Assembly: GCF_038446525.1 (NCBI RefSeq)
Contig: NZ_CP151792.1
Location: 2,542,001-2,606,000, forward strand
Direction: 5' to 3'
Origin: Methanolobus sp. ZRKC5
GTDB lineage: Archaea; Halobacteriota; Methanosarcinia; Methanosarcinales; Methanosarcinaceae
Length of the DNA stretch: 64,000 nt
Position 1 is the stretch's first letter; each line of letters opens with the position of its first letter. Below the pieces are notes generated by a model, which made no database searches, was not told the origin of the DNA, and was given only the letters and a program-made list of their open reading frames with translations. The position numbers and the translations under genes are program-made. Shown here in pieces: positions 30,517 to 37,861 of this stretch.

Positions 30517-31644
30517 CTATTCATCTTCTTTTTTATAATCTGACGCAGCATCTAATTCAATTACAAATTTTGCACCTGACAGTTTGTTGTCCTCAACACG
30601 TATAGAGCCACCGTACCGTTCAACTGTTTTTTTAGCTATATACAATCCAAATCCGGTATTCCCGGTTTTTCCATACTTGTATCCCTCATCAAAAACTCTG
30701 GATTTTACTGCATCAGGAATTCCAATACCATTATCAGCAATTAAAATTTCACAGATGCCATTTTGATTCAATATTTCAATATCGACCTTGCTGGCATTTC
30801 CATGAACCAGAGCATTACTGACAATATTATCGAAAACTGAAGCCAGAGCATTATCAGCCATAACCAGACAGTTTCCAGTTACATTGAATTTTGCTGCATG
30901 TGCACTTATAGCATTATCCACCAGATTTTTGACATTCAAAAGTTTAAGCTGTTCATCAACAACTGAGACCTGATCAATTTCCTTTACATCTTTTATAAGA
31001 GAAGCACTTTTTTGTGAAGCTTTTCTTATCATAGAAATAAATTTTTCATCCCCCTTCTCCTCAAGCAAGTCTAAAGCTCCCATGATGACCTGAAGATCAT
31101 TAGCAATGTCATGCCTTAGAATACGATTTGTATTACGAAGCATTTCGGTAAGTTTCACCTGCTCTTCCTTTGATCTGAATACTTCATGATAGCGCCTTAT
31201 ATTGGATATCGCAAGTCCTGACGCCTTTGCAAGATCAAAAGCAACACTTAGATACTCATCCAGATTTTCCGGAAAAGCAATGCCATGCACCTCGATAATA
31301 CCAAAGAGAGTATCTGCCATCAAAACTTTTATCGCGAAACCATCTTCCGTATCAAACACAACATAGCTTTCATCAGAATCTCTCAATTTCATTATGACAC
31401 CATGTTTGGTTTCAAAGGATTTGCAGTACTGAACTTCTACCTCATCTTCATAAAAAGAATGGTAAACAACATTCTTCGGAGCGAACATTGTACTGAACAA
31501 TTTACAAATCGATTTGATTTCAACAGATTCATCTGTAATATCAGCAATTGTTTTGATAAAATCAATGTAACTATTCAGCCTGATAAAAACACTATCAATA
31601 GCAATCTTGACAAAAAGTTGAGACCTACATTTTATTAGGATCAT
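30517..31644 (-). CDS. C-terminal half of MITE-split sensor histidine kinase (GAF-like, HisKA, HATPase)
   Basis: This ORF of 375 residues begins inside the MITE: its first 26 residues (MILIKCRSQLFVKIAIDSVF...) come from the inserted element. The native sequence resumes at IDFIKTIADITDES. It has a GAF-like region (about 30-150), the phosphoacceptor box RILRHDIANDLQVI, and the HATPase N box (VFDNIVSNALVHGNA), G1 box ADNGIGIP and G2 box GNTGFGLYIAKK. It is missing its natural N-terminal sensor, which is the ORF at 31757-32404. Whether it is translated from the MITE-derived ATG is unknown. Confidence 0.85.
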   Translation of the reverse strand: MILIKCRSQLFVKIAIDSVFIRLNSYIDFIKTIADITDESVEIKSICKLFSTMFAPKNVVYHSFYEDEVEVQYCKSFETKHGVIMKLRDSDESYVVFDTEDGFAIKVLMADTLFGIIEVHGIAFPENLDEYLSVAFDLAKASGLAISNIRRYHEVFRSKEEQVKLTEMLRNTNRILRHDIANDLQVIMGALDLLEEKGDEKFISMIRKASQKSASLIKDVKEIDQVSVVDEQLKLLNVKNLVDNAISAHAAKFNVTGNCLVMADNALASVFDNIVSNALVHGNASKVDIEILNQNGICEILIADNGIGIPDAVKSRVFDEGYKYGKTGNTGFGLYIAKKTVERYGGSIRVEDNKLSGAKFVIELDAASDYKKEDE

Positions 31645-31768
31645 TAATTTTGATTGTTGTCATTGATTGCTTTTTTGATTCTTAGGTTGTTAGTGAGCAA
31701 ACATCTCCGTTTTGATTAAATCAGTATCAATAGGCTAATTGTGGTAGGCTGAATAGTTACAAATCAAT
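31559..31768. mobile_element. 194-bp MITE-like element (31567-31760) with IS66-type ends and 8-bp target duplication
   Basis: The 15-bp terminal inverted repeats GTAACTATTCAGCCT (31567-31581) and AGGCTGAATAGTTAC (31746-31760) are identical to the ends of the IS66-family element at 36232-37853. The 8-bp direct repeat AAATCAAT flanks it (31559-31566 and 31761-31768), the length made by IS66 transposases. It encodes no transposase, so it would need one in trans. It splits a sensor kinase gene. Confidence 0.92.
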
Positions 31769-32404
31769 AGACATAGCATATGAAGCCGCTTTTCTCTGGC
31801 ATAATTTCAACTGTTTTTGCTTCTTTTCAATACTCCATCGAAGTATAAGGTTATCAAAGACCACACTGAAGTATCCCATCCCAACATTTAATATTTTGAA
31901 TGGGACATCTACAAATTTGGAAAATTCTTCTGCCTTGAAAACAAAATCGGAATGAATGCCTATGTCCAGAATCAAAATAGATGAATATAATTCAGAAAAT
32001 GAGGACGCTGAATTATCGTCATACATACCAATAGACCTCAGATTATTCTGCCAGTCTTCCAGCCATCCGGGAGCTACAATAAAAGAACCTGCATCTTCAT
32101 ACTCCTGCAAAGCCTGACTCTCAGTAAACAAGTCATAAATATTTTCAGTCTTATGAATTTTAACAGAGCCAGAATACTCTTCCGGAATGCAAACTTCGGG
32201 ACATGATGTATCACACAGAAGCAGTATATCATTGTCGCATTTTTGCTCCCTGATGATACCAAGGATTATTTCAGACTTTGGAGTATCCTGAGAAGACTTA
32301 AAAAAGGCGCATTTTATCCCTTCATATTGACTTTCAGAATTAAGGATATATTCGATTTCCTGCCGGATATTTACGGGTGCAACAATGTAATGATCATAAA
32401 ACAT
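31757..32404 (-). CDS. N-terminal half of MITE-split sensor kinase (DUF1638-like sensor domain)
   Basis: 215 residues. The segment GSFIVAPGWLEDWQ and the surrounding pattern resemble DUF1638, a family found beside methyltransferase genes in methanogens; this assignment is moderate. The natural protein is cut after SYAMSID: the next codon TTG and stop TAA are created by the MITE end (GTAAC). Skipping the 194-bp element plus one 8-bp repeat joins SYAMSID to FIKTIADITDES of the downstream ORF in the same frame. It starts six bases after the methyltransferase gene, so the sensor belongs to the corrinoid-methyltransferase operon. Confidence 0.82.
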   Translation of the reverse strand: MFYDHYIVAPVNIRQEIEYILNSESQYEGIKCAFFKSSQDTPKSEIILGIIREQKCDNDILLLCDTSCPEVCIPEEYSGSVKIHKTENIYDLFTESQALQEYEDAGSFIVAPGWLEDWQNNLRSIGMYDDNSASSFSELYSSILILDIGIHSDFVFKAEEFSKFVDVPFKILNVGMGYFSVVFDNLILRWSIEKKQKQLKLCQRKAASYAMSIDL

Positions 32405-32410
32405 AATATT

Positions 32411-33448
32411 CTACTCCGGGTACTGACCCCATTTTTTTACGGAATCAGAAATATTCATGATAACTTCTGAAGGAACAAGATAAAGTATTTCCCCGTGGTT
32501 ATCAGAGAGAATATAACCACCGCCATTCGCAGTCTTTTGAATTGCTTCCTTTACATGATATTCAGTATCCTGACGAGTCCAGTGCCGCATCTCAACTCCA
32601 TTCAGGTTACCCATTACTGACACTTTTCCATTACATTCATTTTTTATTTCTCCAAGGTCTTCCAGTACACTTGTACAAATAATAGAAGTTCCCGTTTCTA
32701 TAATATCATTTATTATGGGAAGACATCTTCCTGAAGCCATATGAGTTGCAACAGGTGCGTTAATTCTGGGAATTGCACTTTTGGCAACCTTAAATCCTGT
32801 TTTCCTGTAAAGTTCAGGCGGAATGATAGTTGAGGACGATACAGGATCAAAGTAACAGATTGCAGTTGCGCCTGACTCTATCTGGGCATTGGCCCACTTG
32901 ATACAGAATTCTTCATTGATGCGCATAAGTTCTTCAAACTTGTCAGGTTCCTCGTATATCAAATCAAAAAAACGATTAAATCCCATCTGCATAACCGGCA
33001 ATGCAAAGGGAGACATAACTACTCCAATTATGGGGATATCTTCACCTGCATGTTTCTTGATCAGTTCTGTGGTCTTCAGAACTTTCTGTAATTGTTGCGA
33101 TTCAAAAACATCAGGCGCTTCCAGCGACCCTATGTTCTCATAATCAGATATTATTGGCTTGCCAGCATTCGGAGGGGCATCAGAGTAGAAAATAGAATTT
33201 CTTCCCCATGCTTCAAGCTCAAGTGATGCATAGTAAAAAGAATAGTAGCAATCATGACCATATTTCTGTTGCATTTTTATCTGGCCCTGTGCAACCATTT
33301 CAGGCTTTGAGAAATATTTCTCGATAGAAATATTGAATTCTTTTGATCCCTGTGTTGTAAGCAGGTGGAAGAATGGAACTCTATCCGCTTCTTCATAATT
33401 AAGGGCTGTCAGGACTCTTTCCATGGGAGTCATTGCTTCACTTTTCAT
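32411..33448 (-). CDS. UroD/MtaA-family methyltransferase lacking the usual zinc ligands
   Basis: A 345-residue protein of the uroporphyrinogen decarboxylase-like methylcobamide methyltransferase family (MtaA, MtbA and relatives). The N-terminus MTPMERVLTALNYEEADRVPFFHLL, VMSPFALPVMQMGFNRFFDL and NGGGYILSDNHGEILYLVP are typical of the fold. MtaA and MtbA bind zinc through H-x-C and a later Cys; here the site reads THMASGRC (His236, Ala238) and the later position reads SDNHGE, so the canonical thiol-activating site is absent. It overlaps the corrinoid gene by four bases, so the two surely work together. A role as a substrate-side methyltransferase or in sensing is inferred. Confidence 0.85.
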   Translation of the reverse strand: MKSEAMTPMERVLTALNYEEADRVPFFHLLTTQGSKEFNISIEKYFSKPEMVAQGQIKMQQKYGHDCYYSFYYASLELEAWGRNSIFYSDAPPNAGKPIISDYENIGSLEAPDVFESQQLQKVLKTTELIKKHAGEDIPIIGVVMSPFALPVMQMGFNRFFDLIYEEPDKFEELMRINEEFCIKWANAQIESGATAICYFDPVSSSTIIPPELYRKTGFKVAKSAIPRINAPVATHMASGRCLPIINDIIETGTSIICTSVLEDLGEIKNECNGKVSVMGNLNGVEMRHWTRQDTEYHVKEAIQKTANGGGYILSDNHGEILYLVPSEVIMNISDSVKKWGQYPE

Positions 33449-36223: not shown

Positions 36224-37861
36224 AAAAAAAGGTAACTATTCAGCCTGACTGTTTTAATGATGCAAAAAACAATATACTATGGCTTCATTCTATGTGTTAA
36301 AAAATATTCAGTAAAATATCATAAAAAACGTCTATCAATCTGAGGGGATTTGTATAGACCGCGAAGAAATACTTGCAGTTTATGAAGCTGGTCCAGAAGC
36401 AGTAGTAGAACTTGTAACTCGATTACTTGGGATAATTGAACATCAATCTCTCCAAATTGCACAACTTGAAGAGCGTGTCAGGCATTTGGAAGAAATGCTT
36501 GAAAAGAATAGTCGCAACAGTAGCAAACCACCTTCTACTGATTCTTATGCACGGAATAAACCAACCGTTAAAAGTCAAAGAAAAAAGACCAATAAGCATG
36601 TAGGTGGTCAAAACGGTCATCCTGGTACTACATTAAGAATAAATGATGATCCGGATGAAGTTATTGTTCATCCTGTTAATCAATGCGTCAATTGTGGGAG
36701 ATCGTTAGCTTCTGTTCCCTCTGACTATGAAAGAAGACAGGTCTTTGACATTCCTCCTATAACTATCAATTGCATTGAACATCGTTGCGAGATTAAAACA
36801 TGTCCCAAATGTTCTCATGTAAACAAAGCTCTTTTTCCAGATGGTGTAACTCAGCCGACTCAATACGGTCATCGAGTTAAGTCATTTGCAGTTTATTTGC
36901 ACACTTACCAATTACTTCCTTATCAGCGTGTTACCAAGTTGTTCTCTGATATTTTGGGATGCAAGATAAGTCCTGCTACTTTGGTGAACACGGAACGTAG
37001 TTGTTTTGAGAAGCTTGGAGCTTTTGAAAATACAGTGAAACATCTCCTGAAAGAATCTCCTGTCATCAATCTGGATGAAACAGGAATGAGAATAAATGCA
37101 GTTCGTAATTGGCTTCATGTGGCAGGTACAGACAAACTGACCTATTATTTTGCACATCGCAAAAGGGGCTCAGAAGCAATGGATGCTATGGGCATATTAC
37201 CAGGTTACACTGGTGTTGCAACACATGATTTTTGGAAACCGTACAACAAATATGAATGTCAACATTCATTATGTAATGCACATTTATTACGAGAGTTAAC
37301 TGGAGCTTCCGAAAACAGGGATCAACAGTGGCCAAAGATAATGAGTGATCTCTTGATATGCATTAAACATCATGTTGATAATGATCTTTTAGATACTGAG
37401 CTAATTCAAAGGTTCAGTGAGGATTATGATCACATAACTTGTTTAGGAGTGAATGAAAATCCTCCTGATCCGGAATCAAATGTGCGGTCTAAAAAACGAG
37501 GACGTAAGAAGCAGACCACGGTAAAGAATTTGCTGGATAGGTTTATTGGCCATAAAGAGGATATCTTGCGATTTATGTACGACCAAAACGTTCCGTTTGA
37601 TAACAATCAGGCTGAAAGAGAGATCAGAATGACGAAAGTACAGCAGAAGATATCAGGTACTTTCCGCAGTGAACAGGGTGCAAAAAATTTCTGCCGTATA
37701 AGAGGATACGTGTCTACTGTTAATAAGAATTCTGAATCTGTTATCGATGCAATTAGTGCAATATTTTATGGCAATTCATTTGTTCCAAAGTTGCAGAATT
37801 GATCGTGGATGAAGAAATCAGCTTGGTGGAAGTGAGCTAGGCTGAATAGTTACAAAAAAAG
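36224..37861 (+). mobile_element. Complete IS66-family insertion sequence (36232-37853) with 8-bp target duplication
   Basis: A 1622-bp element. The inverted ends are GTAACTATTCAGCCT (36232-36246) and AGGCTGAATAGTTAC (37839-37853). It is flanked by AAAAAAAG on both sides (36224-36231 and 37854-37861), an 8-bp target duplication. It carries one transposase (tnpC-like) and no tnpA/tnpB. It is the likely source of transposase for the MITE at 31567. Confidence 0.92.
36354..37802 (+). CDS. IS66-family transposase, apparent AUA start
   Basis: A 482-residue transposase when begun at ATA 36354 (then DREEILAVYEAGPEAVVELV). No ATG, GTG or TTG occurs in frame before TTG 36486, yet the upstream codons encode the usual IS66 N-terminal coiled coil (IAQLEERVRHLEEMLEKN, then SRNSSKPPSTDS). 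GAGGGG (36342-36347) is six bases before ATA. Zinc ribbon cysteines (CVNC, CPKC) and the DDE residues are present: Asp in INLDETGMR, Asp in ATHDFWKPY and Glu in NNQAEREIRM. There are no internal stops. Confidence 0.88.
   Translation: MDREEILAVYEAGPEAVVELVTRLLGIIEHQSLQIAQLEERVRHLEEMLEKNSRNSSKPPSTDSYARNKPTVKSQRKKTNKHVGGQNGHPGTTLRINDDPDEVIVHPVNQCVNCGRSLASVPSDYERRQVFDIPPITINCIEHRCEIKTCPKCSHVNKALFPDGVTQPTQYGHRVKSFAVYLHTYQLLPYQRVTKLFSDILGCKISPATLVNTERSCFEKLGAFENTVKHLLKESPVINLDETGMRINAVRNWLHVAGTDKLTYYFAHRKRGSEAMDAMGILPGYTGVATHDFWKPYNKYECQHSLCNAHLLRELTGASENRDQQWPKIMSDLLICIKHHVDNDLLDTELIQRFSEDYDHITCLGVNENPPDPESNVRSKKRGRKKQTTVKNLLDRFIGHKEDILRFMYDQNVPFDNNQAEREIRMTKVQQKISGTFRSEQGAKNFCRIRGYVSTVNKNSESVIDAISAIFYGNSFVPKLQN

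Follow-up and report, generated by a model that had tools for sequence, protein, structure and literature searches.

A recent MITE insertion split, and very probably inactivated, a DUF1638-histidine kinase gene in a Methanolobus genome with resident IS66 transposons

How did a sensor kinase gene in Methanolobus sp. ZRKC5 come to lie in two open reading frames (ORFs), and what does the break mean for the kinase? The window, the 64,000-nucleotide stretch of DNA that was analysed, holds two ORFs on the minus strand that together cover a DUF1638 domain and a histidine kinase. The original prediction was that a MITE had entered a formerly single gene, and that a two-piece gene had thereby been made from a one-component gene. 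The features of the locus are these:

30517..32404, minus strand: interrupted DUF1638 and histidine kinase gene, 561 codons without the insertion
31757..32404, minus strand: upstream half, 215 amino acids: DUF1638 domain, linker as far as D214, one Leu and a TAA stop
30517..31644, minus strand: downstream half, 375 amino acids, with 26 MITE codons followed by native residues 213-561
31567..31760, no strand assigned: MITE, 194 bp, subfamily A with one substitution (T for C at base 94)
31559..31566, no strand assigned: duplicated target (TSD), copy 1, AAATCAAT
31761..31768, no strand assigned: TSD, copy 2, AAATCAAT
31567..31581, plus strand: inverted end (TIR) GTAACTATTCAGCCT
31746..31760, minus strand: second TIR, carrying the stop TAA (31759-31757, minus strand)

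The inserted element is exactly 194 bp long and has an 8-bp TSD, AAATCAAT, on both sides. Its TIRs are perfect over 15 bp (GTAACTATTCAGCCT / AGGCTGAATAGTTAC), the first 15 bases being the reverse complement of the last 15. The inverted ends and duplication had been described exactly to the base. Removal of the 194 bp and one 8-bp repeat leaves a single 561-codon minus-strand ORF without internal stop, which reproduces the proposed joining of the two ORFs. The net insertion length, 202 bp, is not divisible by three. The upstream ORF consists of native residues 1-214 and one altered residue (F215L), and it ends at a TAA within the TIR (G-TAA-C), one codon past native D214. The stop codon of the upstream half is therefore supplied by the MITE, as are the start and 26 codons seen in the 375-aa downstream ORF. 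A ribosome-binding-like site, CCCGGAG (GGAG), lies ahead of the native start of the upstream half; none is recognisable in the sequence before the MITE ATG of the downstream half. Further frameshifts or stops are absent from both halves. Because the insertion is so recent, open halves do not discriminate between the readings considered below.

The cut falls at residues 213-215, within the linker that follows DUF1638, and leaves the domains on either side whole. In the joined protein, DUF1638 (PF07796) scores 31.8 bits against a cut-off of 27 and HATPase_c is above its cut-off; both were matched in all 12 aligned proteins. HisKA is just under its cut-off (26.2 bits vs 26.9, E 8.6e-6), with an invariant H364-D365. 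These three domains of the predicted architecture hold, HisKA at this slightly lower level. The fourth, GAF, was not detected: none of 12 orthologues gave a Pfam match to it, even with the threshold relaxed to E<=5, and an AlphaFold2 model of the downstream half, run from a single sequence without alignment, was too poor (pLDDT 37) for judging it. The H, N, G1 and G2 box motifs are intact in the downstream half. At the cut itself, the residues of YAMS-DFI are invariant in 12 of 12 aligned sequences, and a 16-residue window spanning the cut comes about 13th of 546 for conservation.

To see the gene in its uninterrupted form, the joined protein was searched against 27 genomes of the genus (this one and 26 others). 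An uninterrupted kinase of matching length, 46-68% identical over residues 1 to about 553, is present in 13 of the 26. A split match occurs only in this genome, and none of the 13 relatives with the kinase has it split. The reconstruction thus matches 13 uninterrupted orthologues, as expected if a MITE had entered a gene that was once whole. Relatives carrying two separate genes without the MITE were looked for and none was found. In pairwise comparisons with relatives, each half has a dN well below its dS; the kinase gene was therefore under constraint.

The neighbourhood is shared as well. In all 11 that were compared, the kinase follows genes for a B12-binding corrinoid protein and a URO-D family protein, with a ThiF protein gene nearby. 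EF1A lies on the far side of the kinase in nearly all eleven, and genes for DUF1641 and an oxidoreductase lie between in most. The two upstream neighbours in the window are:

32411..33448, minus strand: URO-D family methyltransferase-like protein, 345 amino acids
33445..34086, minus strand: B12-binding corrinoid protein, 213 amino acids, in the same order in relatives

The kinase gene closes its run of genes, and a convergent gene is met after 9 bp, so polar effects are not expected. In several relatives a second kinase gene, of the MASE3 type, comes next; it is missing in this genome. In genome G007 it is cut near residue 60 by an older, diverged MITE (L112, 9243-9436; about 70% identical to subfamily A), and without the insert the HYLKNSYLL reading matches the orthologues. 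In G013 the MASE3 kinase gene of the same locus is frameshifted. With one absence (this genome), one MITE insertion (G007) and one frameshift (G013) affecting the MASE3 kinase, kinases at this locus have been lost repeatedly.

The element belongs to a large family. Its 14-bp TIR (at most one mismatch) occurs 161 times in forward and 165 times in reverse orientation in the 3.05-Mb genome, and a reversed-pattern control gave 0 occurrences. About 160 pairs of MITE-type ends are present, which rules out a chance inverted repeat as their origin, and at least 40 copies of the whole 194-bp element are full length and near-identical. The statistics that follow rest on a sample of 84 copies. Every one of these is 194 bp long, and 67 have a perfect 8-bp TSD; with perfect TSDs at dozens of sites, an assembly artefact is unlikely. 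Twenty sites separate the copies into two subfamilies, B with 47 members and A with 37. Changes from the subfamily consensus number zero in 62 copies, one in 19 and two in a single copy, and two more are A/B chimeras (L048 and L147:2856), whose diagnostic sites 1-10 are those of subfamily A and the last ten those of B. Near-zero variation within subfamilies means that the burst, the kinase insertion included, is recent. The copy in the kinase gene is itself one base off the subfamily A consensus, so this insertion is recent in relative terms, as judged from divergence. Among named public contigs, the most similar elements (90-93%) are from Methanolobus and more distant ones from Methanosarcina and Methanohalophilus.

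A candidate source of transposase for the MITE lies in the same window:

36232..37853, plus strand: full-length 1622-bp IS66-family element with the same TIRs, 4.5 kb from the MITE

IS66-family elements have GTAA ends. The IS66 transposase domain has 36 matches in the genome, about 30 of them full length, and the full-length 1622-bp copies carry a 15-bp TIR identical to that of the MITE and mostly perfect 8-bp TSDs. The 194-bp element thus has the properties of a MITE: it is shorter than 600 bp, has TIRs and a fixed TSD length of 8 bp, lacks a transposase gene, exists in many dispersed near-identical copies, and has a cognate autonomous element with the same ends and TSD in the 1622-bp IS66 copies. 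It is like IS66-family insertion sequences in its GTAA ends and 8-bp TSD, and differs from them in lacking the DDE_Tnp_IS66 transposase. The two share 15-17 bp per end (up to 24 with mismatches). The idea that the present IS66 gave rise to the MITE by simple internal deletion was rejected, as there is no homology inside the first 15-24 bp; the MITE shares only its ends with the present IS66. From these ends, an IS66-family transposon could mobilise the MITE in trans, and the copy at 36232..37853 is likely to represent the source type of the transposase acting on it.

Several copies elsewhere record other events. At L036/L037 (G000 209980-210375) one MITE is nested within another, and both have a TSD of their own. 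Four pairs, either MITE-MITE or MITE-IS66 (L123, L126, L127 and L044), stand end to end at a distance of exactly 7 bp; where this can be read, the newer element entered an 8-bp target made up of one terminal base of the older element and 7 bp of that element's TSD. These 7-bp-spaced pairs suggest a preferred target directly beside existing ends. Two B-subfamily MITEs, L135 (728871) and L136 (739011) of G000, lack a TSD, and their flanks have been swapped in reverse complement (AAAGAAAG/CTTGATTT and CTTTCTTT/AAATCAAG), the mark left by a 10-kb inversion through recombination between the two.

How ordinary is the insertion in the kinase gene? ORFs of at least 200 aa are interrupted by 12 of the 82 MITEs at sites with enough flank. 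About 71% of the window lies within such ORFs, and by this yardstick, which is one window only and so indicative, MITEs are strongly depleted in genes. Those that are broken include genes for a PAS protein, a metallo-hydrolase-fold protein and an AAA ATPase. At L137 a multi-PAS histidine kinase gene is broken twice (G000 749836 and 751204), by a B and an A copy with perfect TSDs. At L148 (G000 1353292) a subfamily A MITE sits at codon 147 of a B12-binding corrinoid protein gene of 226 codons. The MITE gives the downstream part a start codon in one of its six orientation/phase combinations, and this phase, together with the TIR stop, recurs at two other sampled broken ORFs, L020 and L035. The start/stop anatomy is therefore a property of the element, not of the kinase gene, and these two loci counter the idea that the kinase insertion is special in supplying a stop and a start. 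The kinase case is a very clean but ordinary MITE gene disruption.

We propose the following path. The non-autonomous 194-bp MITE, probably moved in trans by a resident IS66-family transposase, entered the gene for the DUF1638-histidine kinase, which is last in a cluster with those for the corrinoid protein and the URO-D methyltransferase, and duplicated 8 bp. The TIR (GTAAC) places a TAA one codon after the junction, so that the native start yields the DUF1638 sensor half alone. The transmitter half could come only from the MITE ATG, before which no ribosome-binding site can be seen, or from an internal start at the cost of part of the region ahead of the kinase domain. Leaderless transcripts make up about 16% of the total in Methanolobus psychrophilus (PMC5378194), so the absence of a Shine-Dalgarno sequence would leave weak translation of the C-terminal half possible. 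The connection between the DUF1638 and kinase domains is lost through the cut in the conserved linker. That this recent insertion inactivated the kinase is very probable, and loss of its signalling is the economical reading of the gene as it now stands.

Two other outcomes start from the same insertion. One is constitutive or altered signalling, in which the C-terminal half alone acts as an unregulated kinase made from the weak MITE start or an internal start. Its transmitter domains are complete, but no ribosome-binding site is evident before the MITE ATG, and we consider this outcome very improbable. The other is functional fission into a working two-protein sensor kinase, with DUF1638 acting in trans on a soluble transmitter that has a MITE-derived N-terminus. 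The break between the DUF1638 and kinase domains, the Pfam domains kept by each half, the open state of both ORFs and the ATG supplied by the MITE phase all fit such an arrangement. Against them stand the cut in a near-invariant linker, the missing ribosome-binding site for the C-terminal half, and a start-supplying phase that arises in one of six cases and is found in three sampled ones, those in the unrelated ORFs L020 and L035 included, among other genes broken by the same MITE. The insertion is also too recent for selection to have had a visible effect. The proposed two-piece gene is thus unsupported, and a working pair seems very doubtful; were it real, a mobile element would just have built a two-protein kinase, giving one partner its stop and the other its start and 26 codons. 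A third account, that two ancestral genes were fused in relatives and the MITE is a bystander in the gap between them, has nothing in its favour beyond the present two-ORF layout and is refuted to the point of negligible probability, since relatives lack separate genes, 13 of 13 genomes with the kinase have one gene running over the joint, and the 8-bp duplication sits inside coding sequence.

Gene disruption by MITEs has counterparts elsewhere. MITEAba12 of Acinetobacter (PMC6382973) is likewise a short element with the ends and TSD length of a co-resident IS, ISAba12, and it too truncates host genes, with up to 19 element-encoded residues fused to the broken protein. It differs in its length (113 bp), IS and organism, in its 9-bp TSD and in having two copies in the strain studied. 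MITECca01 of a Cardinium endosymbiont (PMC9769881), with 169 copies, is similarly a burst of more than 100 copies, mostly intergenic, in which few protein-coding genes were struck; its parent is of the IS982 family and its host a host-restricted bacterium. A literature search with partial coverage found no direct precedent for an archaeal IS66 MITE and no paper on a DUF1638-kinase fusion.

What might the intact protein do? In Phaeobacter, genetics ties DUF1638 to corrinoid-dependent methionine synthesis, and a role in B12 reactivation has been proposed (PMC5764234). In Ruegeria growing on methylated osmolytes, a DUF1638 protein is more abundant, together with RamA (PMC12478193). Those proteins, linked to corrinoid reactivation, are likewise encoded beside corrinoid proteins, and the one described here differs from them in being fused to a histidine kinase. 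The fusion (30517-32404, orthologues L111-L121) keeps its place among relatives next to the genes for a corrinoid protein and a URO-D methyltransferase. The intact DUF1638-kinase could be a sensor of corrinoid or methyl-group/methylation status, and we put it forward as a candidate.

All parts of the disruption are in hand: the element, its parent transposon, the duplication and the uninterrupted relatives. The kinase insertion is a sign that an IS66-type MITE has multiplied very recently in a methanogen, and it provides a natural, probable loss-of-function strain that is comparable with intact species. Beyond the disruption, the locus draws attention to a conserved protein type in which DUF1638 is fused to a histidine kinase and whose gene neighbours encode a corrinoid protein and a methyltransferase.
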